Assembly: GCF_038002225.1 (NCBI RefSeq)
Contig: NZ_JBBOCA010000001.1
Location: 3,224,001-3,288,000, forward strand
Direction: 5' to 3'
Length of the DNA stretch: 64,000 bases
Source of the DNA: Paenibacillus sp. FSL R7-0204
GTDB lineage: Bacteria > Bacillota > Bacilli > Paenibacillales > Paenibacillaceae
Shown: positions 37,038-53,063 of the stretch, piece after piece
Numbering within the stretch: the first letter of the stretch is position 1
How the letters are laid out: every line of letters begins with the position of its first letter
Position numbers and translations under genes: made by a program
The notes under the pieces: generated by a model
Seen by the model: the letters and a program-made list of their open reading frames with translations, nothing else
Databases searched by the model: none
Told to the model about the DNA's origin: nothing

Positions 37038-37136
37038 GACAATGTACCTCCTGGATAGTGGGATTGGTGTATTCCAAGCAAGCATAATCTACCAACTGTG
37101 ACACCTGTATGGCATACTTGATTAGAGGTGGTCATC

Positions 37137-38063
37137 ATGAAAATGGATCGCTTAATTGCGCTCATTATGATCCTGCTGGAGCATGAGCAGATTAGTGCGC
37201 GCGAGTTAGCGGAGCGTCTCGAAGTCAGCAGGCGAACGATTTACCGGGATATTGATACGCTGAACAGAGCCGGCCTGCCCATCTATACGCTTATGGGAGC
37301 ATGGGGCGGTGTCGGCTTGATGAAATCCTACAAAGTGGGCAAAACCCTGTTCACCCCGCAAGAAATTCAGAACCTGCAGAATGGATTGCACAGCTACAAG
37401 CAGCTGTTCGGGCGGCGGGAGACGGTCTACGCGGCGGAGAAGCTGCAGGCGCTCTATCCTGACAATGCAGAGGGCAGACCGGTTGCACCGTTCGTGATGG
37501 ATCTGTCTTTAAATAAGGGGAACGAATCGCTGCGCAGCCTGTTTGGGCTGATCGAGACGGCGATGAATGAGCACGCTGTGTTGGCTTTTGCGTATACGGA
37601 TGCGCTGGGGCAGAGCAGTGAACGGCGGGTGGAGCCGTATCAGGTGGTTTTTAAGGAGAGCAGTTGGTACTTGCAAGGTTATTGTATGGATAAGCAGGAC
37701 TACCGGATCTTCAAGCTGGCCAGAATGAACGGTCTCCAGGTGACGAAGGAGCAGTTCGTTCCGAGAGCGTTCACCCCTCTCCCCATGGACGGAGGAGATT
37801 GGCTGAACCAGGGATGGGTGGAGGTTACGGTCCGGCTGGACCGCTCTGTCATGGATCGGGTGATCGAACGGTTCGGCGCCGACCATATCCTGCGGGTGGA
37901 TGAACACCACTGCTGGGCCAAGTATCCTATTATTGCAAATGACTATGGCTACGACCGGCTGCTTGCTTTTGGAGATAAGTGTGAAGTGCTGGGGCCGCCA
38001 GAGATACGGAATGGGTTCAAGGCATATGTGCGGGGGATTATGAGGAAGTATGAGGGGGATTAG
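37137..38063 (+). CDS. YafY-type HTH-WYL transcriptional regulator
   Basis: About 308 residues: N-terminal HTH ('LIALIMILLEHEQISARELAERLEVSRRTIYRDIDTLNRAGLPIYTLMGAWGGVGL') and a WYL domain ('SSERRVEPYQVVFKESSWYLQGYCMDKQDYRIFKLARM') followed by the WCX region. The ATG at 37137 follows AGAGGTGG. It is the second WYL regulator in the window (the other is at 682). It is divergent from the GyrI-like gene and probably controls it, a frequent arrangement for YafY regulators. Confidence 0.9.
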   Translation: MKMDRLIALIMILLEHEQISARELAERLEVSRRTIYRDIDTLNRAGLPIYTLMGAWGGVGLMKSYKVGKTLFTPQEIQNLQNGLHSYKQLFGRRETVYAAEKLQALYPDNAEGRPVAPFVMDLSLNKGNESLRSLFGLIETAMNEHAVLAFAYTDALGQSSERRVEPYQVVFKESSWYLQGYCMDKQDYRIFKLARMNGLQVTKEQFVPRAFTPLPMDGGDWLNQGWVEVTVRLDRSVMDRVIERFGADHILRVDEHHCWAKYPIIANDYGYDRLLAFGDKCEVLGPPEIRNGFKAYVRGIMRKYEGD

Positions 38064-38805: not shown

Positions 38806-38905
38806 GGCGGGCTTGGGGAGGGGCTAGGGTGAATGAAATGAAGTATTCGATTTGGATTGAAAGTGACACTAGGTTGTGAAAAACTATTTTATGAGGAGTA
38901 GTCGC

Positions 38906-39622
38906 ATGTTTACAGATCTTATTCACAGACTTGGTCTTTCATTGCCTGTTGCATTAGTTGAGGAGTTGGAGCTGCACAAGGAGAAACAAAAGAATCAAAA
39001 CTACTTTTTGAGATTAATGGAAGCTGACGAAATTGTTGAATTAGTTGATTATATGTCCAAAATAGAGGCTTATCGGGATATGATTCCTTTGTGGAGTGAC
39101 GATCATTCAAACTATATTGGCTTGTACGTACAAGGCGCATGCAAATACAGGATATGTTATATCGATCATGAGGAAACGGATGTATCTCCGGCCTTTAGAA
39201 GTATACCTTCATTTATAACGAAAATCGAAGAATATCCTGATCTGGATTGGCATGATTTGAATAAAGACTATCCAGCAGAATTTGAAGTTAGTCAAACTGA
39301 AATGAATGAAGACCTCGCTTGTATTGACGAGTTGAATCGAATGATAAGCTCTGACCAACTTATAAGCGATGATATTCGCTGTCAGTATATTTTTTCGATT
39401 ATGGCATTAACGCCAAAAGGAAATCTTAATTCCATCATAAAATATCTAGACGATGAAGATATGTTTGTTCAAGAAAGAGCATGTGAGATTATTGGATTTC
39501 ATACTTATATACCAGCTAAGGAAAAGCTGGTGAAGATCTCCAAAAACGGAATGCATAATGGGAAAATAGCAGCCAAAAGAGCATTAGAAAGGATAAGGGA
39601 AGACCGAAAAAATGAAATTTAA
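38906..39622 (+). CDS. SUKH-like immunity protein with C-terminal HEAT-like repeats
   Basis: About 238 residues. GAGGAG precedes the ATG at 38906. 'MIPLWSDDHSNYIGLYVQGACKYRICYIDHEETDVSPAFRSIPSF' (about 60-107) is a SUKH/SMI1-type core. Residues about 155-235 carry HEAT-like helical pairs ('IMALTPKGNLNSIIKYLDDEDMFVQERACEIIGFHTY'). This combination is found in SMI1/KNR4-related bacterial proteins. It is probably an immunity protein, but no toxin partner is close. It is AT-richer than the upstream regulators. Confidence 0.7.
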   Translation: MFTDLIHRLGLSLPVALVEELELHKEKQKNQNYFLRLMEADEIVELVDYMSKIEAYRDMIPLWSDDHSNYIGLYVQGACKYRICYIDHEETDVSPAFRSIPSFITKIEEYPDLDWHDLNKDYPAEFEVSQTEMNEDLACIDELNRMISSDQLISDDIRCQYIFSIMALTPKGNLNSIIKYLDDEDMFVQERACEIIGFHTYIPAKEKLVKISKNGMHNGKIAAKRALERIREDRKNEI

Positions 39623-39736
39623 AAGCTCTGAATTGCTCTGTAAATCGACTCGAACTACTAGGAAATAGAGTACACAAAAGTGAATTTGTAAATGAGATAA
39701 GAACTAAAATTATGGAATTAATTAAGGAGATACAAT

Positions 39737-41113
39737 ATGCTGCCATCACTAACGTTTCTGAAACATCAATTAGAGGGAATTCTGCGTAATAAATTTGCAC
39801 AGGGGCATCAAACCTCCGGTTTTTTGGCCCGGTTGGAACAGCTTCCCGCAAGCTATGATGCTTATCTGGAATTCGCCCATAGTTTAGCTGACATTCCAAT
39901 GCGGGACAACTGGCCCTACTATGAGCCGGACGATTTGGAGGAGATATGGCGGGAATGCGACCCGGATAGACCTTTAGGCCAGATCGGAGTCTTGAATCTG
40001 AAGGACAGTGCCAAGCGTATAGAGGCAGGCTTCCTCGCTTCAGTCTGTGGTTCAATGCTGGGCAAGCCGATCGAGGTCAATCCCACGTTGTCGGAATTAC
40101 GTCAAGCGTTAACCGCTGTGGGGGAATGGCCGCTGAATGATTATATTTCGGAAGAAGCTCTCCATGCGTTGGATCGTCGTCATTGGTCCTGGTTCGAGAC
40201 GGCGAGGGGGAGAATTCGCTATGTGGCACCTGACGATGATATCAACTACACCTTAATGGGCATGATGGCGTTAGAGCAATTTGGTAAGGGTTTTACGAAA
40301 AGAAACCTAAGAGATTTATGGATAAATCATCTTCCGATAAGTACAACATGGGGGCCGGAGAGGGCTATCCTGGTCCGGTCGGGAATTAGCTATTTGGAGC
40401 ATGACCGGGAATTATTCAATCATTCTGAGATAGAGTCTTGGCCCGACTTCCTGGTGCAAGATACAGAATTATGCGGCGCGGCGATTCGTGCAGATGCTTA
40501 CGGCTATGCCTGCCCCGGTCAACCTGCTCTTGCGGCTGAGCTGGCTTGGCGTGATGCAAGCTTTACACATCGCCGGACGGGGAATTATGCCACGATGTTC
40601 ATTGCCGCTGCAATTGCTGCCGCACACGTGCTGCGCGATCCGCTTGAAATAATTAGTACTGCCCTGCAATTCGTACCTAGAAGGAGCCGATTCTATGAGA
40701 TTACCGAGGATTGCCTGCAGATCGTAGCGAATGCAGATAACTGGCTGGAGGCGTATCAGGGCATTCATCAGAAGTACGCGAATCATTCCCACTGTCAGGT
40801 GTATCAGGAAATCGGCACCTTGATCAATACCTTTCGATTTGCTGAGAATGCCGGAGACGGAATATGCAAGCAGGTCATGCAAGGTAACGATACCGACAGC
40901 TTCGGAGCAACAGCCGGCTCGCTGCTTGGGGTGTATTTCGGCCCGGACAGCTTGGAACCTAGATGGCTTGAACCTTTCCAGGACCGGATTCATACGGGCT
41001 TATCTAATTTTCATGAGCAACAACTCTCCCGCTTGGCTGAGCGCATAGGGCGTTTGCCAGAGCTGCTGCACACCGGCCAGCACCGAATTCAACCCAGCGA
41101 GCTGTATGTATGA
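39737..41113 (+). CDS. ADP-ribosylglycohydrolase family protein
   Basis: 458 residues. The family's two metal-binding motifs can be read: 'APDDDINYTLMGMMALEQFG' (about 165-184) and 'GNDTDSFGATAGSLLGVYFG' (about 386-405), and 'GSMLGKPIEV' near residue 105 is the usual N-terminal start of the fold. The roughly 90 extra N-terminal residues are unusual. The enzyme removes ADP-ribose from proteins or from small molecules; target unknown. AAGGAG precedes the ATG. It directly precedes the defence island, with 159 bp between. Confidence 0.87.
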   Translation: MLPSLTFLKHQLEGILRNKFAQGHQTSGFLARLEQLPASYDAYLEFAHSLADIPMRDNWPYYEPDDLEEIWRECDPDRPLGQIGVLNLKDSAKRIEAGFLASVCGSMLGKPIEVNPTLSELRQALTAVGEWPLNDYISEEALHALDRRHWSWFETARGRIRYVAPDDDINYTLMGMMALEQFGKGFTKRNLRDLWINHLPISTTWGPERAILVRSGISYLEHDRELFNHSEIESWPDFLVQDTELCGAAIRADAYGYACPGQPALAAELAWRDASFTHRRTGNYATMFIAAAIAAAHVLRDPLEIISTALQFVPRRSRFYEITEDCLQIVANADNWLEAYQGIHQKYANHSHCQVYQEIGTLINTFRFAENAGDGICKQVMQGNDTDSFGATAGSLLGVYFGPDSLEPRWLEPFQDRIHTGLSNFHEQQLSRLAERIGRLPELLHTGQHRIQPSELYV

Positions 41114-41272
41114 AAGAGGTGAGTAACATAGCGAGTATAAGAAATGAAATAACAGAAGCCATTGGAATAACATCTGCTAATCCCATAACTAATTAGGATT
41201 ATCGTTGGATATAAAAGTAATAGATTTTATTCGTCAGTACTTTCGATGACTTAAACTTGGGAGGAATAAATA

Positions 41273-44200
41273 ATGCCATTTAGTAAATCTGATTTAGGAG
41301 CACAAGCCTCATGGAAAGGTTATTCTTCCCAAACTTTATATATTGCTTCTCGAGTAGTTGCGGATATAAACTCACTAGAGTATTTTCCGGAACACCTTGA
41401 AGATTTACTGATTAAAAGTGATGATGAAGTTTCAGAAATAGTACAGATTAAAGACTTAGGCTCTGATTTGAGTATATCAAGTCTTGCTTCTACTAGCGCT
41501 TCATTGAAAAATGAAGGTTTCTTTCGGAGAGTGTTAAGTTTGCGAAAGCCAGAATCAAAAAGAATAGTCGTAAAGGTTGTACATTTTGGGGAATTGGGAG
41601 ATGAATTGGAAGGTTTTATAAATGGGGTCACTAGTTCTTTAGAAAGTATTAAGGACAAACTTGTAAGGAACCACCATCTATTGTTAGAAGAAGTAGAATG
41701 GATTACGGAAAGAATGATATTTGAGAAAGTTGATAAAGAGGTTCTTCAACTTAAAATAGCTGAACAAATTAAAAGTCATATTCCAACAATGATTGCCCCA
41801 TCTATAATGCAGGATTTATTAATTCAGTATATCTCTGATTTATCAAAAAATAAGGGTTATACTTCTAAAAGTATTTGGCAAGAAAAAATACATCAAATTG
41901 GTAGAGATATGGCTTCAATAGATGGATATTTTAGAGAATATGGAAGTTCTCTTATAAGGTTATCTGATATTGAGAATTTTAAAAGTTTTGAAGAAATGAA
42001 ATTAGAATACGAACAAGGTATTTCTGCGCATCCTGCTCATATACGCTTTTCACTGGATTTCGAACGGATACACTGGCTGGAAAAAATTGAAGCTGCGCTT
42101 GTTGGAGATAAAGTTGTTATTGTTAAAGGGGCTTCTGGACAAGGGAAAACTTCATTATGTTATAAATATTTGATAAAAAATTATGCTGAAGAACTTGTGT
42201 TTTGTATAAGACAACTTCAAACACAAGGGCAAGCTGAAAATTTAGTAAAAGCAATATTTGGACTATCAAAACATTCAACAAATATTATTTTATATATTGA
42301 TGTTAATCCAGGACAAACATATTGGACTTGGTTAATTAGGGAGCTTCAAATTAGAGGGATTTACATACCACTTCTTATATCAATTCGTGAAGAAGATTTT
42401 AAACAGTCAAATGTGGATCAAAATGTTGTATCTTTTGAAATACTTGAATTGTCTTTAACCCAAAAAGAAGCGCAAAAAATATATGATAAACTAACAGTAA
42501 ACAAGCCTCATGAACTTTATCGTACTTTTGATGAAGCTTGGCAAAAATTTGGTGGGGAAGGCCCCCTGTTGGAATTTATGTATTTACTTAATAATCACCA
42601 AACTTTAAAACAACGTTTAACTTTTCAAATTAATAGATTAATTGATGAGAGTGTAGAAGACTCTTGGTTGGATCTATTGGTGCTTGTATGTTATGTTGGC
42701 AGGGTAGATGGCTCTATTCTATTTGAAAGAGCAAAAAAAATAGTACAATGTTCAAATACTATAAGTGCTTTACGGCGAATGAGTGATGAATATTTAGTTA
42801 GAAGCTCAGTAGATGGGAAATATATTGAGTCATTGCATTCAATAAGAGCAGAAATCTTATATTCTATATTAATAAAAGAGATGAGATTGGAAGAAAATGA
42901 GGTGCTCCTTAAAAGTTTGGCTTGTGTAGATGGAAATGTACCTCAAGTTCTTCTTTTTTACTACTTTACGAATAACGAAATTGAAATGGGGTTGATAGGC
43001 CAAATAGCAGGTGTTGGATATCCTGATTGGGTAGCATATGGTAGAACATTGAATGCAATGCTTTGGTTAGACGTAATGCAATATGTAGATCAAAATAAAG
43101 AAGTGTTTGATTTAGTGTTCAAAGAAAATGGTTCTGGATGGCCTATGTTTGTTCCTATGGACATTACTGGAGAAATTGCTCCAGGAAAGTTTGCTGCATT
43201 TGATCTATTAGAATATGTTTATTCAAAAACGGAAATGTTTACTCATCTTGAAATGGTCAAAGAGTCGTTACATAGTCATGTATTATCATATCTAATCACT
43301 GATAAATGGTTGGATATGTCAGTTGCCCCTAAAAAAATTCCCATGAGTGATCTAGAATGGACGAATTTTGGATACGTATTATATTGGGCTAGCTTAAGAA
43401 AAAAGAAATGTGAAATGGAATTTTCTTATAATGAATTATTATCTGCAATGATTGAGGGGAAAACGGAGAGTAAAATTGATGCCACTCTTGGCTTGTTCAA
43501 ACAGGGCTATTTAAAATTATACGATGAATGTGAAATTATCTTGAGAAAAAGACTTATCCATCAGCATAATATATTGTTATTGGACATTACTGATGAAGAA
43601 GTTATATGTTACTTTATTCCACCATACTTTCAAAACCCAAAAGCTAATGAAGTTATTGAACAATCTAATCATTATTGGACAAAAAATATGGTTGGGCTCT
43701 TAGATAGATTATATCCTAATAAAGAATTTATTACGGTAGAATTATTAGGAGTTGATATATTTAGAGATTTTGGAATTAACTCATTTGATAACAAACGAAG
43801 GATATCAAAAGAAAACCGTCGAGATTGGTGGATTACTCAAGTAAATTCTTGGTTACTTATGCGAGTGAATTTGAAGCATCGGCATGATAATTGGGATGCT
43901 TATATAAAGGAAATCATTTCTTTACGAAAAACAGTCTTTGAAACCTTAAGTGATTTTAAAAATCTTATTGAATTTTTTTATAAGCATAAGTATTGGAATG
44001 TTTCAAAATCTAAATCTTTTTTCTCTAAATTAGATAATCTAAAATTATTAATGCGTAAAGAATATCTTTTGCCGATTATTGTTGTAGATAACTTTGGAAT
44101 AAGTAGTGAAGGTTTTAAAGAGGTTCCAAGTTCTCATATTTCTACTAGTATCTCCACACATCCATATAAAGAATACAGAAAACATTTGCAGGGAGTTATA

Positions 44201-45289
44201 TCTGCGATAGGTAATTTCTTTGCACAATTTCACGAAGTAATAGTTGCAAGACAAAAAGGTGAAGAGATTGAATCAAATTTATCATTAATTAATCTTTACG
44301 AAGCTTCAAAATCCATGTTTTTTTTGCAGGTTGAATTCGAAAAACTCTTTCGCCCTTATCTAAATAATGATTATTTCAAATTCGCGAAAATAGAACTTGA
44401 TGAATTCTTAATCAATTTAAATATGTGGGAAAGTGTGTTAGAACAAAAGCCTAGAGGTGTCGGTTTGATTTACAGTGCTAGAGAGAAAATGAAAATAACA
44501 CCCGACTTGATACTTCAAAATTTTCAAGATAAAGTTTCTCATTTTAAACCGGATATTACAATAATAGATACCTACGAAGATAATACTAGATTTGTAATTT
44601 ATAATGGAATAATATCTGAAACATCAACAGTTGAAGATCAGTATTATCATTTTTGTTTAGAGTTCAAAGACTTATTAAAAAAAGCTAGGAACTTTAATAA
44701 TTCAAGGTGGATAGTGGAGACTAGTTGGCCAGATATTGTTTTTGTCCCTCTACTTAATGGGCTTCCAATACTTGGTGGTTTTAAAGTACCCTTATATCAA
44801 CTAATTGGTAAGTATGAAATAGAATCAAATAACATATTTTTTCCTGTAATACTTTCAGAAAAAGTATATGATTTTTATAATATAAATTCAATAATATACA
44901 AAAAGTGGAGAGAAATGCTGGGAGAAATCGGTTCTATAAGACTGAGGTTGCTCCAGTACAATCAAATTATTGAAGTTCTAATTTCATTAGATGACAATAT
45001 CATTAAAGAAACTCTAGAAAATTATTTGGAGGATTTTTTATCCGAAATTTCAGGGAATATAAAATCGGCAAACACTATAATTCTAGAGGTCATGAAATTA
45101 TTGAGTTCAAAAGAATCATATGAAGCAGTTGAGTTAATTTGTAATGCATTACAAAATATAGGTTCTCTAGAATTTCTAAATGATTTCGTTAGTGAATTGC
45201 AGGTGGTAGAAGGAATTCCTGAGGCCCTACTTCAATCATTAATAGAATTGATTCAAGTTACGCCATATTTAAAGAGTGGCAGCGATTAA
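41273..45289 (+). CDS. Large nuclease-NTPase protein, Avs/STAND-like defence candidate
   Basis: 1338 residues, strongly AT-rich, GGGAGGA before the ATG. The N-terminal 110 residues look like a Cap4/DUF4297-type PD-(D/E)xK nuclease: 'GAQASWKGYSSQTLYIASRVV' followed by Glu43-Asp44 and Gln58-x-Lys60 (VQIKD). Then comes a helical stretch (about 120-265) and a P-loop NTPase with Walker A GASGQGKTS (286-294, Lys292) and Walker B 'NIILYIDV' (about 338-345), with 'LLISIREEDF' as a possible sensor. The last 800 residues are helical and unassigned; no clear TPR is visible. The layout fits anti-phage STAND proteins, where the C-terminus senses a phage protein. Not matched to a named Avs type. Confidence 0.65.
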   Translation: MPFSKSDLGAQASWKGYSSQTLYIASRVVADINSLEYFPEHLEDLLIKSDDEVSEIVQIKDLGSDLSISSLASTSASLKNEGFFRRVLSLRKPESKRIVVKVVHFGELGDELEGFINGVTSSLESIKDKLVRNHHLLLEEVEWITERMIFEKVDKEVLQLKIAEQIKSHIPTMIAPSIMQDLLIQYISDLSKNKGYTSKSIWQEKIHQIGRDMASIDGYFREYGSSLIRLSDIENFKSFEEMKLEYEQGISAHPAHIRFSLDFERIHWLEKIEAALVGDKVVIVKGASGQGKTSLCYKYLIKNYAEELVFCIRQLQTQGQAENLVKAIFGLSKHSTNIILYIDVNPGQTYWTWLIRELQIRGIYIPLLISIREEDFKQSNVDQNVVSFEILELSLTQKEAQKIYDKLTVNKPHELYRTFDEAWQKFGGEGPLLEFMYLLNNHQTLKQRLTFQINRLIDESVEDSWLDLLVLVCYVGRVDGSILFERAKKIVQCSNTISALRRMSDEYLVRSSVDGKYIESLHSIRAEILYSILIKEMRLEENEVLLKSLACVDGNVPQVLLFYYFTNNEIEMGLIGQIAGVGYPDWVAYGRTLNAMLWLDVMQYVDQNKEVFDLVFKENGSGWPMFVPMDITGEIAPGKFAAFDLLEYVYSKTEMFTHLEMVKESLHSHVLSYLITDKWLDMSVAPKKIPMSDLEWTNFGYVLYWASLRKKKCEMEFSYNELLSAMIEGKTESKIDATLGLFKQGYLKLYDECEIILRKRLIHQHNILLLDITDEEVICYFIPPYFQNPKANEVIEQSNHYWTKNMVGLLDRLYPNKEFITVELLGVDIFRDFGINSFDNKRRISKENRRDWWITQVNSWLLMRVNLKHRHDNWDAYIKEIISLRKTVFETLSDFKNLIEFFYKHKYWNVSKSKSFFSKLDNLKLLMRKEYLLPIIVVDNFGISSEGFKEVPSSHISTSISTHPYKEYRKHLQGVISAIGNFFAQFHEVIVARQKGEEIESNLSLINLYEASKSMFFLQVEFEKLFRPYLNNDYFKFAKIELDEFLINLNMWESVLEQKPRGVGLIYSAREKMKITPDLILQNFQDKVSHFKPDITIIDTYEDNTRFVIYNGIISETSTVEDQYYHFCLEFKDLLKKARNFNNSRWIVETSWPDIVFVPLLNGLPILGGFKVPLYQLIGKYEIESNNIFFPVILSEKVYDFYNINSIIYKKWREMLGEIGSIRLRLLQYNQIIEVLISLDDNIIKETLENYLEDFLSEISGNIKSANTIILEVMKLLSSKESYEAVELICNALQNIGSLEFLNDFVSELQVVEGIPEALLQSLIELIQVTPYLKSGSD

Positions 45290-45362
45290 AATATAAAAGA
45301 AAGGTAGGGAGGATGATAATTATGGGTGGTAACTCATTTCATATACCATTACCTTTTTCAAT

Positions 45363-45573
45363 TTCCCTACGCCTTCCCCCAACAGTTTGGATAACCTTAT
45401 CCCTAGAAAACATTTTACCCAAATTATCGAAAATAAGGGGACGCCCAGTGACAACTCACAAAACACCTATTAGATTAACGATTGAAAAATCGCTCTACAT
45501 GTTGCAACAAAACCAGAACCCTGTGGATTGGTAACCATGGGGGAGGGAGGCCAATGTGCATACGGAGAACAAG
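45363..45573 (+). pseudogene. Decayed copy of the 5' end of the DUF255 gene
   Basis: This stretch aligns with 50878-51085 at roughly 80% identity by eye. It includes the leader, the GTG start region ('GTGACAACTCAC' is identical) and about 40 codons ('TIEKSLYMLQQNQNPVDW' against '[18 protein letters not shown]'), then a TAA where the intact gene has TAT. It covers no functional domain. It marks the left side of the Gabija segment. Confidence 0.85.
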
Positions 45574-45640
45574 TAGATCCTTCTATCCGCTGGCTACTCA
45601 ACTTACCATTGAAATCAAAACATTATACATATATTTATTA

Positions 45641-45668
45641 AAGCTGCCTTATGAAGGTAGCTTTTTTG
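45641..45668 (+). terminator. Terminator-like hairpin
   Basis: AAGCTGCCTT (45641-45650) pairs with AAGGTAGCTT (45654-45663) with one mismatch, 3-base loop, followed by a T-run. It could end a transcript entering from the large NTPase gene. Confidence 0.75.
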
Positions 45669-45699
45669 ATTATTGCTTTAGTCAGTTGAGCGCGTGAAA

Positions 45700-46360
45700 C
45701 GCGGGAAACAAAAAACCACCCGCTATGCGGATGGAGGGAGCGAGGGTTTGACCACTAAGACCATTCCGATAGAATTGAGATGTTCAGGCTCAATCGAAAG
45801 GAATGTCAAAGATGGCAAACAAAAGCTATAGTCTAGCTCACACGAAGTGGATATGCAAATATCATATCGTGTTCACCCCGAAGTATAGACGCAAAGAAAT
45901 CTATAATCAAGTGAGAATAGATTTAATCGAAATTTTCAGACGACTATGTAAGTATAAGGGAGTCGAAATTCTAGAAGGCCACATGATGTCCGATCATGTT
46001 CACATACTGGTAGCGATGCCACCGAAAATTGCAGTCTCGACATTTATGGGGGATCTAAAGGGGAAAGTTCGCTGATGATCTTCGAGAAGCATGCCCAACT
46101 CAAGTATAAATACGGAAATCGAAAATTTTGGGCAGAAGGCTACTATGTAAGTACAGTAGGACTGAACGAGGCCACGGTAGCCAAATATATTCGTGAACAA
46201 GAGGCACATGACCAGGCAATCGATAGACTGAGTGTAAAAGAGTATGAAGATCCATTTAGCGACAAAAGAAACAAAAAGAAATAAACCCGTTTAACGGGTA
46301 AGTAAAAAGATAAATTTGAGCCTGAACACAATTGCTGTCAGGCTAGCGTTTTTAGGCGCA
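45700..46360 (+). mobile_element. IS200-type insertion sequence, probably dead
   Basis: A single transposase gene of the Y1 (HuH) type, without a TnpB gene, is flanked by short subterminal hairpins: ACCACCCGCTATGCGGATGG around 45715-45735 at the left and AACCCGTTTAACGGGTAA around 46285-46305 at the right. IS200 elements have such imperfect end hairpins and no terminal inverted repeats or target duplications, so the exact ends cannot be fixed; the coordinates are approximate. It sits just left of the Gabija genes. Confidence 0.75.
45803..46284 (+). pseudogene. tnpA: IS200/IS605 family transposase TnpA, frameshifted
   Basis: The first frame reads 'SLAHTKWICKYHIVFTPKYRRK' and 'EGHMMSDHVHILVAMPPK', which has the HuH motif (HVH), and stops after 'GDLKGKVR' at 46072-46075. 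The second frame starts 'MIFEKHAQLKYKYGNRKFWAEGYYVSTVGLNEATVAKYIREQE', with the catalytic Tyr in 'GYYVSTVG'. In intact relatives 'KGKSSLMIFE' is continuous, so one A is probably lost in the run at 46064-46066. Without the second part the Tyr nucleophile is missing. It starts at ATG 45803 or 45812. Confidence 0.85.
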
Positions 46361-46585
46361 CTTTGGCAATAAGCGGTTATACCAAACTACCTATTAGACG
46401 AGTGGTCCTGATTTTTGATGTAAGAGAGGACCTCTGTTTTCTGAAAGATAATGATGTATATAAACGTTCTTTCAACGGAAATAATAATTAATCTCAAAGA
46501 CAACTTTTGTTGAAGGTAATATCTAAATTATGTCGAAACATGTATATGTTGAAGATTTTATAATTTAAATGCGGGATGTGAAATT
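46285..46585. other. Region between IS element and Gabija-like operon
   Basis: The right end of the IS element (to about 46360) is followed by AT-rich DNA with no gene. TATAAT at 46559-46564 is a possible -10 for the Gabija operon, without a clear -35. Confidence 0.5.
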
Positions 46586-48739
46586 ATGTACATTTCAAAC
46601 CTTTCGATTACAAATTTCAGGAATTTTAAAAATAGTAATTTCATCTTTAAAAAAGGAATTAATACTTTAATTGGTGAAAATGGAGCCGGGAAAACAAATG
46701 CATTTTATGCACTACGACTTATGTTAGATGGAAATTTACCAATTAATGCTTCAAAGCTTATTGAGACAGACTTTAATAAGGGACTTAATGATTGGAGAGG
46801 ACACTGGATCGCAATTAAATTAGAATTTAAGGATTTAGATTCTAGTGAGGCTACAACCATGTTAGCTCATAAAATGGAAAATGTTCTGGAAGAGGAATCT
46901 AAAGGTACGTATATTATGTACTTTAGACCAAATAAGAAATTAAGAAAATTACTGTATGAATTATCCGAGAGTTCAGATAAAAACGCTGAAGCTCTTAAGA
47001 TAATATTGTCTGAAATAACTATAAATGACTATGAAACAGTATATTGTTTTAGAGGAAACGTAGACTTAAATGATGAGTTAGTATACAAAAAAATAGTTGG
47101 GGATTTTGAAACTATAGAATTTTCTGATCCTGATAAAGATGATCAGGATGAGCTAGGAAATCCAACTTCTCAAACATTTTTAATTCGCAATGAAATTGCT
47201 TGCACCTTTATCAAGGCATTACGAAACGTAGTAGGTGATTTAAAGCAAATAAAACATAGTCCTTTATTAAACTTATTAAGAGGTACTGCAAATGACATTA
47301 AAGTTAAAGATTCACAATCCATTACAAACAAGGTAGTGGAATTGAATGCAACAATAAGTGAATTAGAAGAAATCAAGCAGCTAACCAATAAAGTAAAATC
47401 GTCATTGAATGATACATTAGGTTTTACATATGCCCCAAGTGTAAATATTAAATCTGAATTGCCAGAGGAGATAAATAAACTCCTAACTTCTTTAACATTA
47501 TGGGTAGGTGATGGCGAAGAAGATCAAGAAGGCAAGTTAGAAGATCTTAGCTTAGGTGGGGCAAATTTAATTTATATAACTTTGAAGTTATTAGAATATG
47601 AGTATAAAAAACCAAAGGAAGAAAAGGCTGCACATTTTCTTTTAATTGAGGAACCAGAGGCTCACATTCATACTCATATTCAAAAAACTTTGTTTGATAA
47701 GTATCAATTTGAAAATACACAGGTTATTGCTTCTACTCATTCGACACACATTTCATCCGCTAGTAAAATTAGTGCTGTAAATGTTCTCAGTAAAGATATG
47801 AACCAAACGTACGTTTGTAATCCGAGTAAATCGCTCTTACCAAAAGAATGTATGAGAATTGAGCGCTACCTTGATGCTACTAGATCTACTTTATTGTTTG
47901 CAAAAGGTGTAATTTTAGTAGAAGGTGACGCTGAACTTATTCTTATTCCAGAGATGTTTAAAAAAGTTTTTGGAATAAGCCTTGATGAAATAGGAGTTAG
48001 TATAATTAATATGAGTAGTACTGTTTTTGAACATATAGCTAAGCTATTCCACGATGAAAGAATTCATAGAAGGTGTTCTGTTATTACAGATAACGACATG
48101 TCTTTAATCGACCTTCCAGAAGATTCTTTTACAGACAACAAGGAGCAGAAAAAAGCAAGGGATTCTCAAACTAAGGGTATTGAAAGAAGAAGCAAGCTTG
48201 ATACAGTTTATAAGGATAATCAATGGGTTCGGCCTTTTTATGCAAAGCATACTTTTGAGGTTGAATTCATTCTTAGTGGTAACGAAGATGAAACAATTTC
48301 TACATTGGATAAAATCTATACAAGAGAGGCAGATAAGACAAATTCACGATTAAAGTTAACGTCTGTTGATTCACGAACTAAAGGTTTAGAAATTCTGAGA
48401 CTTGTAGAAAAAGAAGGGAAAGGTTGGTTTGCTCTATTAATGGCAGAAGGATTGTCTCCAAAGACACTAATCCCAACGTATATTTTAGAAGCTATTGCTT
48501 TTGCTTCTAGTCATATTACTACAAAGCACTTTATAAAAATGGCAAAGCATATCACGGAGGATAGGTTAGATAAGTCTTTATTTGAGGCACTACTTGAACA
48601 AGCAAAAGTAGAGGCTCTTGAAGACGATGCAATTCTTGCTGATATCTTAAGTGCTCTTGATAAACTAGATTCGGAAAATCAATTATTCAGGTTCTATAAG
48701 ATGGTTAGTAAGGAAAGGGAACTTCAATATGCTGAGTAA
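46586..48739 (+). CDS. gajA: GajA-like OLD family nuclease (ABC ATPase plus TOPRIM)
   Basis: 717 residues. N-terminal ABC-type ATPase: Walker A GENGAGKTN (30-38, Lys36), signature-like 'LSLGGANLIYITLKL', Walker B 'HFLLIEEPEAHIH' and 'ASTHSTH'. The C-terminal TOPRIM half has Glu446 in 'ILVEGDAELILIP' and Asp502-x-Asp504 in ITDND. These are the parts of Gabija GajA, a nucleotide-gated DNA-nicking enzyme. It is longer than the founding GajA (about 580 residues), mainly at the C-terminus and between the halves. It overlaps the helicase gene by 11 bp, so the pair is co-translated. AT-rich, so probably acquired. Confidence 0.85.
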   Translation: MYISNLSITNFRNFKNSNFIFKKGINTLIGENGAGKTNAFYALRLMLDGNLPINASKLIETDFNKGLNDWRGHWIAIKLEFKDLDSSEATTMLAHKMENVLEEESKGTYIMYFRPNKKLRKLLYELSESSDKNAEALKIILSEITINDYETVYCFRGNVDLNDELVYKKIVGDFETIEFSDPDKDDQDELGNPTSQTFLIRNEIACTFIKALRNVVGDLKQIKHSPLLNLLRGTANDIKVKDSQSITNKVVELNATISELEEIKQLTNKVKSSLNDTLGFTYAPSVNIKSELPEEINKLLTSLTLWVGDGEEDQEGKLEDLSLGGANLIYITLKLLEYEYKKPKEEKAAHFLLIEEPEAHIHTHIQKTLFDKYQFENTQVIASTHSTHISSASKISAVNVLSKDMNQTYVCNPSKSLLPKECMRIERYLDATRSTLLFAKGVILVEGDAELILIPEMFKKVFGISLDEIGVSIINMSSTVFEHIAKLFHDERIHRRCSVITDNDMSLIDLPEDSFTDNKEQKKARDSQTKGIERRSKLDTVYKDNQWVRPFYAKHTFEVEFILSGNEDETISTLDKIYTREADKTNSRLKLTSVDSRTKGLEILRLVEKEGKGWFALLMAEGLSPKTLIPTYILEAIAFASSHITTKHFIKMAKHITEDRLDKSLFEALLEQAKVEALEDDAILADILSALDKLDSENQLFRFYKMVSKERELQYAE

Positions 48740-50528
48740 ACTAAACCCTCAACAGAGAGAAGCTGTTAAGTTTCAAGAGAATGCATTAGTCATAGCTTGT
48801 CCTGGTAGTGGGAAAACGCGTGTACTAACATCCAAAATAGCGTATGAATTAGAAAAAATGACTACAAAAAAGAAGATGGTTGTCGCTCTGACTTATACTA
48901 ATCGTGCTGCTGAGGAAATAAGCAAAAGAATTGATGAAATGGGTATATTAACTGAGCAACTTTGGGCTGGGACTATACATTCTTTTTGTTTTCAGTGGAT
49001 TCTAAGTCCATATTCAAGTTATTTATCAGAGCTTAAATATGGTTTTAGTATTGCAGATGAATTTATGGTAGACGAATTAAAGGAACAAATAATTGAAGAG
49101 TATAATTTGCCGGGATACACTGAGATAAATACTAGGATAAATAGGCAGGGAAGTTATGATTTTATAGGTGCTGGTAATAATCCAGCAGAAGAGCTACATA
49201 AGCGGTTATTAAAAAATCGGATGATTGATTTTGACCTTTTACTATATTTCTCCTTTCAACTATTAATGAAATATCCTAAAATTTCGTTACATCTAGGGAG
49301 AATTTTCACATATATTTTAATAGATGAGTTTCAAGATACACAGGACTTACAGTACGCCGTAGTGGGTCAAATTATAAAAGCCAGTCAAAGAAATTGTAAA
49401 TTGTTGTTAGTGGGTGATCCCAACCAGGCAATTTATAGTTCGTTAGGCGGAACAGCGAAAGAGGTTTCTGAAATAGCAGAAGAAATAGGATGCGAGATAA
49501 AAAAGTTAGAGCTATCTGGGAATTATCGTTCAATTCAAAGGATAATTGATTATTATACATTATTTCAATGGCATGAGACAAATGTGAAATCAATGATTGA
49601 TGATGGAAGAGATAAAGGAATAGTGAAGTTTAATAATACAACACATAAAGATAAATTATATCAAGAATTAGCGACTATTATTCGTCATCATCTTAATAAA
49701 GGAACTGAGCCAAACGAAATATGTGTTATTGCTCCTCGTTGGGATCATTTAACTACCATTTCAAGAAGATTAAAGTCACTACTGCCAGATGTGCCATTTG
49801 AAGCACCTGGATTAACCCCTCTTCCTCGTTCTCTAGATAATTTTTGGTATAAGCTTGCAAGACTATTATTAACTGAGCCATCTTCAAAGATGTATATGAC
49901 TAGAATGAGATGGAGTAAGCAAGTGCTCGAAGAAATTAATATTTTTACAAATATGAATTATGAAATTAATAGTAACCAATCCCGTAAGTTTCTAAGGTTA
50001 ATTAACGGAATAAAAATAGACGAATCAAATGGTATTCTATATTTAAAACAAGCATTTACATTGTTATTTTCATTATTAAATATTGACTCAGAAGAACATA
50101 AAGTTCTAAACGAACATTGGGAGTCTTTTTTTTATGGGATTGAGAGAAGGTATTCTAAACCTGACTTTGAAACCATACCAAAGGATATATCTTATTTTCG
50201 TTCGATGTTTCAAATTGCTAAAGGAGTTGTTGTAAATACTTGTCATGGTGTAAAAGGTGAGGAATTTGACACAGTCATTGCATTTGGACTACTAAGAGGT
50301 TTTGTGCCACACTGGAACAGTATAATAAATCAACACTATATGGTAGAAGAAGAGCAATCAAAAAAGCTACTATATGTTATTGGTTCACGTGCCAAAAGAA
50401 ATCTTTATTTATTTGCAGAAAAAGGTAGGTTAACTCAAAGTGGAAATGATTATGAAGTTAATCGACAACTAGGAAGGGTGAATTTTGAGTATAATGATTT
50501 TGAGAAATCATTAGTTTATGGAATCTAG
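48729..50528 (+). CDS. gajB: GajB-like UvrD/PcrA family helicase
   Basis: 599 residues of superfamily 1 helicase. 'LNPQQREAVKF' is the Q-motif, Walker A is ACPGSGKTR (Lys29), motif II is 'ILIDEFQDTQDLQ', motif III 'LLLVGDPNQAIYSSLGG', motif IV-like 'LELSGNYRS', and 'VVNTCHGVKGEEFDTVIAFGL' is motif V, followed by 'KLLYVIGSRAKRNLYLF' for motif VI. The length fits GajB (about 500) with extra sequence. In Gabija the helicase acts together with the GajA nuclease tetramer. It overlaps the upstream stop and ends before a terminator at 50613. Confidence 0.88.
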   Translation: MLSKLNPQQREAVKFQENALVIACPGSGKTRVLTSKIAYELEKMTTKKKMVVALTYTNRAAEEISKRIDEMGILTEQLWAGTIHSFCFQWILSPYSSYLSELKYGFSIADEFMVDELKEQIIEEYNLPGYTEINTRINRQGSYDFIGAGNNPAEELHKRLLKNRMIDFDLLLYFSFQLLMKYPKISLHLGRIFTYILIDEFQDTQDLQYAVVGQIIKASQRNCKLLLVGDPNQAIYSSLGGTAKEVSEIAEEIGCEIKKLELSGNYRSIQRIIDYYTLFQWHETNVKSMIDDGRDKGIVKFNNTTHKDKLYQELATIIRHHLNKGTEPNEICVIAPRWDHLTTISRRLKSLLPDVPFEAPGLTPLPRSLDNFWYKLARLLLTEPSSKMYMTRMRWSKQVLEEINIFTNMNYEINSNQSRKFLRLINGIKIDESNGILYLKQAFTLLFSLLNIDSEEHKVLNEHWESFFYGIERRYSKPDFETIPKDISYFRSMFQIAKGVVVNTCHGVKGEEFDTVIAFGLLRGFVPHWNSIINQHYMVEEEQSKKLLYVIGSRAKRNLYLFAEKGRLTQSGNDYEVNRQLGRVNFEYNDFEKSLVYGI

Positions 50529-50612
50529 AATTACATATCGATGAGTACTTAATAGTGGCAGAAGCTTTTGGAAAAATGTTTTTTATATTGTTTGATAAGT
50601 AAGCCTCAAACG

Positions 50613-50645
50613 GCCCTCACCGTTGCTTCAAGGTGTGGGCTTTTT
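50613..50645 (+). terminator. Terminator of the Gabija-like operon
   Basis: GCCCTCACC (50613-50621) pairs with GGTGTGGGC (50632-50640) with one mismatch, 10-base loop, followed by five Ts. It lies about 85 bp after the helicase stop. Confidence 0.8.
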
Positions 50646-50877
50646 GGTGGCAGGAAGAAGCAGAGGTATGGATTGACTATGTCTGTGTAGAATGTAATAA
50701 GGTAGATCCTGTTCGAATTAATAGTAGAAGAGTTGGTGTCTACGACTTTTGAAAATGGAGAATCCCCAGAGTTTGCCTGCCTAGCTTTTAACGGATCTTT
50801 GGTGCGAAAAGAGAAGCCAGCGGATAAATAATCACTAGCTAGAAAGATAGTCACTCAGTAGGGGGATTTTGTTCTTC
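50646..50877. other. Unassigned DNA between the Gabija operon and the DUF255 gene
   Basis: Frames here are short. One reads 'WIDYVCVECNKVDPVRINSRRVGVYDF' (about 50669-50750, plus strand), with a Cys-x-x-Cys that could come from a zinc ribbon, but it has no start and no homologue I know. It may be debris of an earlier gene. Confidence 0.35.
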
Positions 50878-50900
50878 TCCCTGCGCCCTCCCCCACCAAA

Positions 50901-50935
50901 TTGGGTAAACTATCCCTAGACAACACTTTACCCAA
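50901..50935 (+). promoter_or_regulatory. Conserved hairpin in the leader of the DUF255 gene
   Basis: TTGGGTAAA (50901-50909) and TTTACCCAA (50927-50935) form a perfect 9-bp stem with a 17-base loop, 26 bp before the GTG start. The decayed copy upstream has the same place, but the left arm is changed (TTGGATAAC), so the stem is weakened there. It may be an operator or an RNA stem that affects translation. Confidence 0.5.
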
Positions 50936-50960
50936 ATCATCCGAAATGAGGGGACGGCCC

Positions 50961-53063
50961 GTGACAACTCACAAGTCACCCAATAGATTAGCGAACGAAA
51001 AATCGCCTTACCTGCTCCAACACGCCTACAACCCTGTGGACTGGTATCCATGGGGAGAGGAGGCTTTTGCCAAGGCTAAGGCGGAGAACAAGCCGATCTT
51101 CTTATCCGTCGGCTATTCGACCTGCCATTGGTGCCACGTAATGGAACGCGAATCCTTCGAGGACGCCGAAGTCGCCCAGCTCCTCAACAATCACTACGTA
51201 GCGATCAAGGTAGACCGCGAGGAGCGGCCGGATATTGATGCGCTGTATATGTCGGTGTGTCAGGCGCTGACGGGGAGCGGGGGATGGCCGCTGACGGTGC
51301 TGCTGACGCCGGAGAAGAAGCCGTTCTATGCGGGGACGTATTTCCCGAAGCGGCAGATGTTCGGACGGATCGGGCTGATGGATGTGCTGGAGCAGATTCA
51401 TACGAAGTGGGAGCAGGACGGTGAAGCACTGGATAAGCTGGGCGACGACCTGCTGGCAGAGCTGCATACGCTTGACCGCAAGAATGCGTACAACCCGGAA
51501 GCCGCAGGCGGGATTCCCGGCGCGGAGCTGCTGCATGAGGCATATGAGCTGTACCGGCGTCAATTTGACGAGGAATATGGCGGGTTCGGTAATGCGCCGA
51601 AGTTCCCTTCGCCGCATAATTTGTCGTTCCTGCTGGCGTACAGCCAGCTGCATGATCAGCCGGAAGCGCTGCGGATGGTGGAGCATACGCTGGAGTCGAT
51701 GTACCGGGGCGGCATGTACGACCATGTGGGCTTCGGCTTCGCTCGTTATTCAACAGACCGGGAGTGGCTGGTGCCGCATTTTGAGAAAATGCTCTACGAT
51801 AACGCTCTCCTCGCGAATGTCTATCTGGAAGCCTTCCAGCTTACGGGGAAGCCGCTGTATGCGGAGATTGCCGGGCAGATCTTCACGTATGTGCTGCGTG
51901 ATATGACTTCGCCGGAAGGCGCGTTCTACTCCGCAGAGGATGCCGATTCCGAAGGGGTGGAAGGCAAGTTCTACGTCTTCTCCCGTGAGGAGATTGAGGA
52001 AGCGCTTGGGCTGGAGGATATGCATTCCTACTGCAATGTGTACGGGATTACGCTGGAAGGCAACTTCGAAGGGGAAAATATTCCGAATCTCCTTCACGGT
52101 CTGCCGGAAGAGATGGCGGAGCGTATGGGCATGAATCCGCTTGGTCTGCGGACCCGGATGGAGGAATGGCGTACGAAGCTATTCGAGTACCGGGAGCAGC
52201 GCATTCATCCGCTTAAGGATGACAAGGTGCTGACCTCGTGGAACGGCCTGATGATTGCTGCGCTGGCCCTGGGAGCCAAGGCCCTCCAGAAGCCGGAATA
52301 TGCCAAGGCCGCCGAACGTGCAGCGGACTTCATCTGGGACAAGCTGCGGCGTGAGGATGGGCGGCTGCTGGCCCGTTACCGTGACGGGGAGTCGGCGATT
52401 CCCGCATATCTGGACGATTATGCCTTCCTGATCTGGGGTCTCAGCGAATTATATGAGGCTACAGGTCAAGCGGTCTATCTGGAGCGGGCGCTGACGCTTA
52501 AGGATGGGATGCTGGAGCTGTTCCTAGATACCGAAGGAGGCGGGTTCTTCTTCACCGGGCATGACGGGGAGAAGCTGCCGGTCCGCTCGAAGGAATTGTA
52601 TGATGGGGCGATTCCGTCCGGGAATTCGGTGGCGGCGAAGCTTTTGTGGAAGCTGTCGGTTATTACCCAGGATATGGAGCTGAAAGAGATTGCGGAGCGC
52701 ACCGCTGCGGTGCTTGCTTCGGCTGCGGCGGAGTATCCGCCGGGGTATGCGATGTATTTACAGGCCCATCTGGGGATGGTCTCTGGCGGCAGAGAATGGG
52801 TCCTCTCCGGCAAAAAAGAAGATCCCGCGCTGCACGCCATGCTCGCTCAGGTCCAGCAGACCTATCTGCCGGACGCAGCGCTCATCGTGAACTGGGAAGG
52901 GGACGGCGGAGAGATGCTCCGCCTGCTGCCGCATCTGGCTGATAAACCGGCCGTCCGGGGCGAAGCGACCGCTTATGTCTGCCGTAACTTCGCCTGCCGG
53001 GCCCCGCTTACGAATAAGGAAGCGGTCCGGGAACTGTTGGCTTCCGGCAGCCGTGAGGAGTAG
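50961..53063 (+). CDS. DUF255 thioredoxin-domain protein (YyaL/SPATA20-like)
   Basis: About 700 residues. Start GTG at 50961 with GAGGGG 7 bp upstream; the protein then begins '[35 protein letters not shown]', typical of the family. The thioredoxin-like N-terminal domain (about 1-165) has the CxxC-type motif STCHWCHVM and '[11 protein letters not shown]'. The rest is an alpha/alpha toroid like that of N-acylglucosamine 2-epimerases and glycoside hydrolases ('[39 protein letters not shown]'). Function is unclear; a role in redox or sporulation has been suggested for relatives. A 5' fragment of the same gene lies at 45363. Confidence 0.92.

Follow-up and report, generated by a model that had tools for sequence, protein, structure and literature searches.

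An Avs-like nuclease-STAND gene, a candidate antiphage receptor, in a variable defence site of Paenibacillus

A nuclease-STAND-sensor gene and its family

Positions 41273..45289 (+) of a 64-kb window of Paenibacillus sp. FSL R7-0204, the whole stretch of DNA analysed here (contig NZ_JBBOCA010000001.1, 3,224,001 to 3,288,000), hold an intact, ATG-started open reading frame (ORF) of 1338 uninterrupted codons with GGAGG upstream of the start. Its product joins a putative nuclease, a STAND NTPase and a long putative sensor part in one chain, and we refer to it as the nuclease-STAND gene. It is present in one copy in the 7.7-Mb genome and is AT-rich (GC 28-35% in 300-base steps). A protein search at E <= 0.001, in which the best 7,991 candidates were scored, returned 35 further homologues beyond the query, 1317-1392 residues long and 21-64% identical to it. 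The nearest named relatives are from Paenibacillus, and the few homologues for which the source supplies a name are all called 'hypothetical protein'.

A profile search, with one genome per species, revealed 63 family loci in Bacillota, Bacteroidota, Thermodesulfobacteriota, Planctomycetota, Myxococcota and Pseudomonadota, as well as in two archaeal metagenome-assembled genomes (Thorarchaeota and Methanobacteriota). Homologues of similar length at this range of identity, together with loci in many phyla, exclude a chance ORF. We aligned the 54 loci with a usable long ORF to the window's protein (55-row locus alignment), omitting those that were split, truncated or partial (L018, L023, L028, L033, L051, L053, L057, L058 and L064). 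Further alignments comprised 36 member proteins (A1), 52 of the 54 loci plus the window (A2, without L013 and L039) and 53 of the 54 plus the window (A3, without L032). Within Paenibacillus, the family gene occurs in 4 of 100 genomes, the window's own counted. Matches were found in 8 of 72,556 plasmid records, only 2 of which cover at least 70% of the query, and in 1 of 50,697 phage records, over 70%. Two plasmid-borne hypothetical proteins match the family profile, one from Agrobacterium tumefaciens (pAt; L080:5314-9153, E 1.7e-26) with an integrase gene nearby and one from Hymenobacter tibetensis (L081:5155-9132, E 4.5e-103) with an MmeI-type restriction enzyme gene nearby.

Neighbour clusters within four genes, built from mechanically called ORFs, were common to at most 4 of the 54 loci, so the gene probably works alone; the neighbours scanned were 110 of the 379 called (within two genes, 150-1300 amino acids, complete). 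The original prediction for this DNA, made without database searches, had proposed a 1338-residue protein from a strongly AT-rich single gene, and the intact ORF, its homologues, its base composition and the lack of a recurrent partner bear this out. No name for the family was found in the literature searched, which did not cover most subscription journals or bioRxiv preprints outside PubMed Central.

Residues 1-215 (41273..41917, +) form a putative nuclease domain of the Cap4/DUF4297/LmuA type. The predicted structure shows a PD-(D/E)xK fold as in the Cap4/DUF4297 family, and its closest nuclease structure matches include Hachiman and Lamassu LmuA. The catalytic motif E40..E43-D44..Q58-x-K60 (41390..41452, +) combines a conserved acidic residue with (E/Q)xK, which we take to be the form that the motif has in this family. 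In the locus alignment, E40, D44, Q58 and K60 are kept in 54/55 rows and E43 in 53/55, the single row without D44, Q58 and K60 having a gap there; Glu43, Asp44, Gln58 and Lys60, along with Lys292 of the NTPase, are invariant across A1. The original prediction had located these residues correctly and expected this fold, and it had ended the domain at about residue 115, too early by some 100 residues.

STAND proteins carry an NB-ARC/NACHT-like module followed by a winged helix, a GxP motif and a switch histidine. A P-loop NTPase of this kind (nSTAND3/nSTAND_NTPase5) lies at residues 263-445 (42059..42607, +), and secondary structure places a winged-helix-like domain at residues 463-537 (42659..42883, +). 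The Walker A motif G286-x-S-G-Q-G-K292-T (42128..42151, +) has S288-K292 in 55/55 rows, and D343 of the Walker B region (42287..42304, +) is kept in 47/55 rows and in 36/36 members of A1. In R372-x-E374-D375 (42386..42397, +), R372, presumably a sensor-1-like arginine, and D375 are found in all 55 rows and E374 in 54. G427-x-x-G430-P431 (42551..42565, +), which we take to be the GxP-like motif of STAND proteins, keeps P431 in 52/55 rows and G430 in 49/55. The winged-helix-like domain has H522-x-x-R525, presumably MHD-like, with both named residues in every row. Fold comparison agreed: residues ~220-600 matched SAMD9, NLRC4 and Apaf-1, residues 440-543 resembled winged-helix repressors such as SqrR and HlyU in VIA-align, and nSTAND3 matched 51/53 members at E <= 0.01. 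By its Walker A and B motifs, GxP-like motif, histidine and fold, this P-loop NTPase with winged helix is a member of the STAND superfamily. The predicted P-loop at Lys292 is thus real, and the module it belongs to is STAND and not one of the other ATPase families that had been allowed for.

Among solved STAND modules, the one in human SAMD9 came nearest to residues 220-600 (41930-43072), by a clear margin over NLRC4, Avs5 and Apaf-1. The abstract of PMC5445408 lists AlbA, Sir2-like, TPR and OB parts for SAMD9. Neither the query nor any of the 36 members matched a Sir2 or AlbA family in Pfam, and SAMD9 (PDB 9zjr, 9zjs, 9zjz) lacks the Cap4-type nuclease present here. Membership of the SAMD9 family was rejected on the nuclease fold of residues 1-215 and the absence of an AlbA or Sir2 match.

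Residues 601-1338 (43073..45286, +) make up the putative sensor part, recognised by its predicted fold and low identity. The model of residues 440-1338 (predicted local distance difference test 89.4, predicted template modelling score 0.86) shows mostly helices, two alpha/beta stretches (~767-845 and ~1095-1192) and a helical bundle last; the C-terminal part had been expected to be helical, which holds in the main, the alpha/beta stretches being additional. Foldseek found no match for this model at E <= 0.001 in the PDB or in the viral models of BFVD, and none of significance to the arms of Avs3 or Avs4. VIA-align matched roughly the final 130 residues to designed four-helix bundles and also gave matches for the winged-helix end, the middle being barely tested. 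The earlier suggestion that the sensor may be new agrees with these searches, and a new fold is possible. Mean pairwise identity over the 55 rows is 38% for residues 1-120, 39% for 263-470, 22% for 601-800, 25% for 801-1060 and 17% for 1061-1338, and such divergence rising toward the C-terminus is what would be expected of a receptor arm.

Recombination within the gene

In 60-residue blocks, identity of the protein to its relative in Paenibacillus spiritus (L003) is 85-92% throughout residues 1-360 and 57% in the block after that, while Paenibacillus sp. RC73 (P0002) is closer to the query in most blocks from 361-420 on. DNA identity to L003 is 83-93% up to 42412 (72% in one step, at 41813), falls to ~60% at 42413 and is 32-73% onward. 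Among 355 informative residues, L003 is favoured over P0002 by 76 to 14 up to residue 389, and P0002 over L003 by 202 to 63 from residue 394 onward. The maximum chi-square for this pair was 103.8, a value reached in 0 of 2000 permutations. The drop in DNA identity and the maximum chi-square place the breakpoint within the NTPase domain, at about residues 381-394 (42413..42454, +).

When L002 was used in place of P0002, the break fell at 345-349 (chi-square 47.5, 0/2000); a weaker break near 75-78 in the comparison of L002 with P0002 (8/2000) was left uninterpreted. In trees without P0002, the query is sister to L003 for residues 1-600 and to L002 for residues 601-1338, each with support 100/99. 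These comparisons are direct evidence, at the level of sequence, that recombination brought an N-terminal part which P. spiritus shares together with a C-terminal part that differs from the one in that species. The two trees largely agree in their deep groups, so it is only between close relatives that shuffling can be seen.

Gabija block and insertion site

The gene lies in a low-GC block at about 41140..50690, with fuzzy edges at 41100-41210 and 50690-50940, that has a GC content of 32.8% against 48.7% elsewhere in the window and also contains Gabija. This block is shared with another species: the congener G103 differs at 53 of 9550 bases (99.4% identity), and within the nuclease-STAND gene at 20 of 4017. 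Identity is 91-93% in the flanks next to the block and 80-97% in the other 500-base steps or pieces of the neighbourhood that align; near-identity is not confined to the block, as 38860-39731 is also 98.4% identical in G103. The simplest inference is that the nuclease-STAND gene and Gabija moved together recently.

GajA (46586-48739, +) and GajB (48729-50528, +) are matched by PADLOC at E 1.9e-279 and 5.6e-228. The gene had been described as standing beside a Gabija-like pair; the pair is genuine, and lies 1.3 kb away, across a stretch that holds a broken transposase and the remnant of a gene. The transposase (45803..46284, +), split over two frames, we take by eye from its translations to be IS200/IS605-like. 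The remnant (45364..45611, +), directly 3' of the nuclease-STAND gene, is a direct repeat of 50878-51130 and corresponds to the 5' end of a PF03190 (DsbH/DUF255) gene, with 81% identity to the intact copy over 154 bases.

Upstream, the site is flanked by an ADP-ribosylglycohydrolase gene (39737..41113, +; PF03747, E 1.6e-30), found in 10/12 congener loci, and downstream by the intact PF03190 (Thioredox_DsbH/DUF255) gene (50901..53063, +; E 4.3e-78), found in all 12, a presence that was selected for since the loci (L112-L123) were chosen via the flank genes. In the 10 congeners with both flanks, the interval spans 2.8-11.9 kb. The scan covered 20 cargo ORFs from 10/12 loci, picked mostly by size and excluding the cargo of G102 and G081 and small ORFs; the STAND ORF of L123 was recognised by blastn. 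Strong PADLOC matches at the site were found in 6/12 loci: Tmn (E 5.3e-70) in G088; the retron-type reverse transcriptase RT_I-B (2.8e-102) and ATPase-Toprim_I-B (1e-191) in G104; Mokosh plus Gabija in G101 (MkoC 7.6e-167, GajA 4e-215, GajB 2.2e-88); HerA (5.8e-135) in G070; an OLD-like protein (1.4e-35) in G110; and Lamassu LmuB (1.8e-202) and LmuA (3.6e-80) in G067, a genome without an ADP-ribosylglycohydrolase match. As read from its cargo, the interval between the two flank genes is a variable defence site in the genus. Counting against this are 8 of the 20 scanned ORFs for which PADLOC gave nothing at 1e-5, and 1 with a weak match.

In G057, which we take to be the P. spiritus genome of L003, the STAND relative stands directly before the PF03190 gene, and the stretch fetched has no match to the window's Gabija. 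Remnants of the PF03190 5' end are also present in G101, G110, G057 and G003. Identity to the window's PF03190 copy, given for the 5' end and the body, is 78/93% in G104, 79/91% in G069, 78/87% in G067 and 73/73% in G057. The 5'-end divergence and the remnants fit repeated insertion at this end with stacking of cargo, for which no recombinase was identified.

Proposed mechanism and alternatives

The Avs proteins showed that recognition of viral proteins by NLR-type receptors occurs in bacteria as it does in animals and plants. When residues 1-600 were compared with the PDB by Foldseek, Avs3 bound to terminase was the best match (E 3.1e-10), ahead of Avs5 (1.2e-7) and Avs4 (3.1e-7). Avs3 (PDB 8dgc; Avs/AVAST) likewise has nuclease, STAND NTPase and long C-terminal sensor in one chain, although its solved chain has ~2000 residues against 1338 here. 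Avs5 (EfAvs5 9jap, AVAST5 9nc9) differs in its effector, a Sir2 NADase and not a nuclease. In HerA-DUF4297, Lamassu LmuA, Hachiman and CBASS Cap4, the related nuclease either has HerA, a helicase or an SMC-like protein as its partner or is fused to a cyclic-nucleotide receptor, whereas the nuclease of the query is joined to a STAND module. Sequence and models support a single-gene, Avs-like nuclease-STAND receptor that would work like Avs3. We do not file it under Avs1-5, to no type of which the original prediction could assign it either, since no Avs profile matched and its sensor has no significant match.

We consider it likely that the protein is a single-gene, Avs-like antiphage receptor, in line with the antiviral order of nuclease, switch and sensor first proposed for it and now supported by motifs, predicted folds and the Avs3 match. 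At rest, the STAND module (220-600) would hold nucleotide and keep the protein inactive. The C-terminal arm (601-1338) would bind a component of the phage, probably one of the proteins produced in infected cells, upon which the NTPase module would rearrange and the protein oligomerise. The oligomer could then bring the nuclease domains (1-215) together to cut intracellular DNA, which would stop the phage but sacrifice the host cell. The defence site around the gene makes an antiphage role firmer than the protein sequence alone would.

Several results weigh against this interpretation. PADLOC listed 9 families for the 36 members at E <= 0.01, none Avs-named, and NCBIfam gave no match to the query at E <= 0.1; both libraries, we assume, hold Avs models. 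The query had no Cap4_nuclease match, scored 18.1 bits against nSTAND3, under the Pfam cut-off of 27.2, and belongs to a set in which only 9/36 members have a precomputed Pfam STAND assignment. For the arm, Avs3 came first in the PDB at E 0.012 and probability 0.25, which is not significant, and some of the divergence gradient could reflect relaxed constraint rather than receptor selection. The resting arrangement is not seen in the models, as the halves (1-600 and 440-1338) were folded separately.

The same machine might instead respond to some other sign of danger (for example incoming plasmid DNA, DNA ends or inhibition of the host by a phage) and then degrade DNA. Its closest nuclease matches include LmuA and Hachiman, a DNA-damage sensor according to the abstract of PMC12278908, and its arm lacks significant likeness to those of Avs3 and Avs4. 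We nevertheless find this unlikely: protein-sensing Avs and NLR proteins are the ones that carry such a long, rapidly diverging arm behind their STAND module, and neither Pfam nor PADLOC found a helicase or SMC-like part in the query. Less probable still is a housekeeping or regulatory STAND protein with a nuclease-like domain, acting in MalT-like transcription or stress regulation, given its patchy occurrence in 4/100 congeners, its place in a variable defence site, a nuclease motif intact in 54/55 rows and the lack of any Pfam match of the query to a DNA-binding domain of the regulator type. We give equally little credence to the gene being a passenger carried along in the Gabija block, decayed or silent and with no function of its own. 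The broken transposase and gene remnant nearby would suit such a passenger, as would the split or short relatives (L018, L028, L057); this copy, however, is intact with all motifs kept and hardly differs between two species, and the P. spiritus relative occupies the same position without a match to this Gabija.

Returning to the Avs-like receptor, we propose only tentatively, and with more doubt than confidence, that the family forms a branch of its own among such receptors, one that spans domains of life, in which the 740-residue sensor would be a new fold for a phage component outside those of Avs1-5, sensor parts would be swapped behind a constant nuclease and switch, and the switch would be the nearest known prokaryotic counterpart of that of SAMD9. 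The family adds a widespread receptor with the Avs kind of effector and switch and an arm unlike any solved structure searched. As a single gene with no recurrent partner it is easily tested, and from its recombinant junction near residue 390 one would expect specificity to be set by the part C-terminal to that point. The surprise is moderate, and lies in a broad family unnamed in the libraries searched, an unmatched sensor, intragenic recombination and a defence site. The position before the PF03190 gene is a place to seek further defence systems in Paenibacillus. Upstream of this site, the window also encodes a WYL-domain regulator (37128-38063) and a weakly SUKH-like protein (38876-39622; Pfam E 0.0081).

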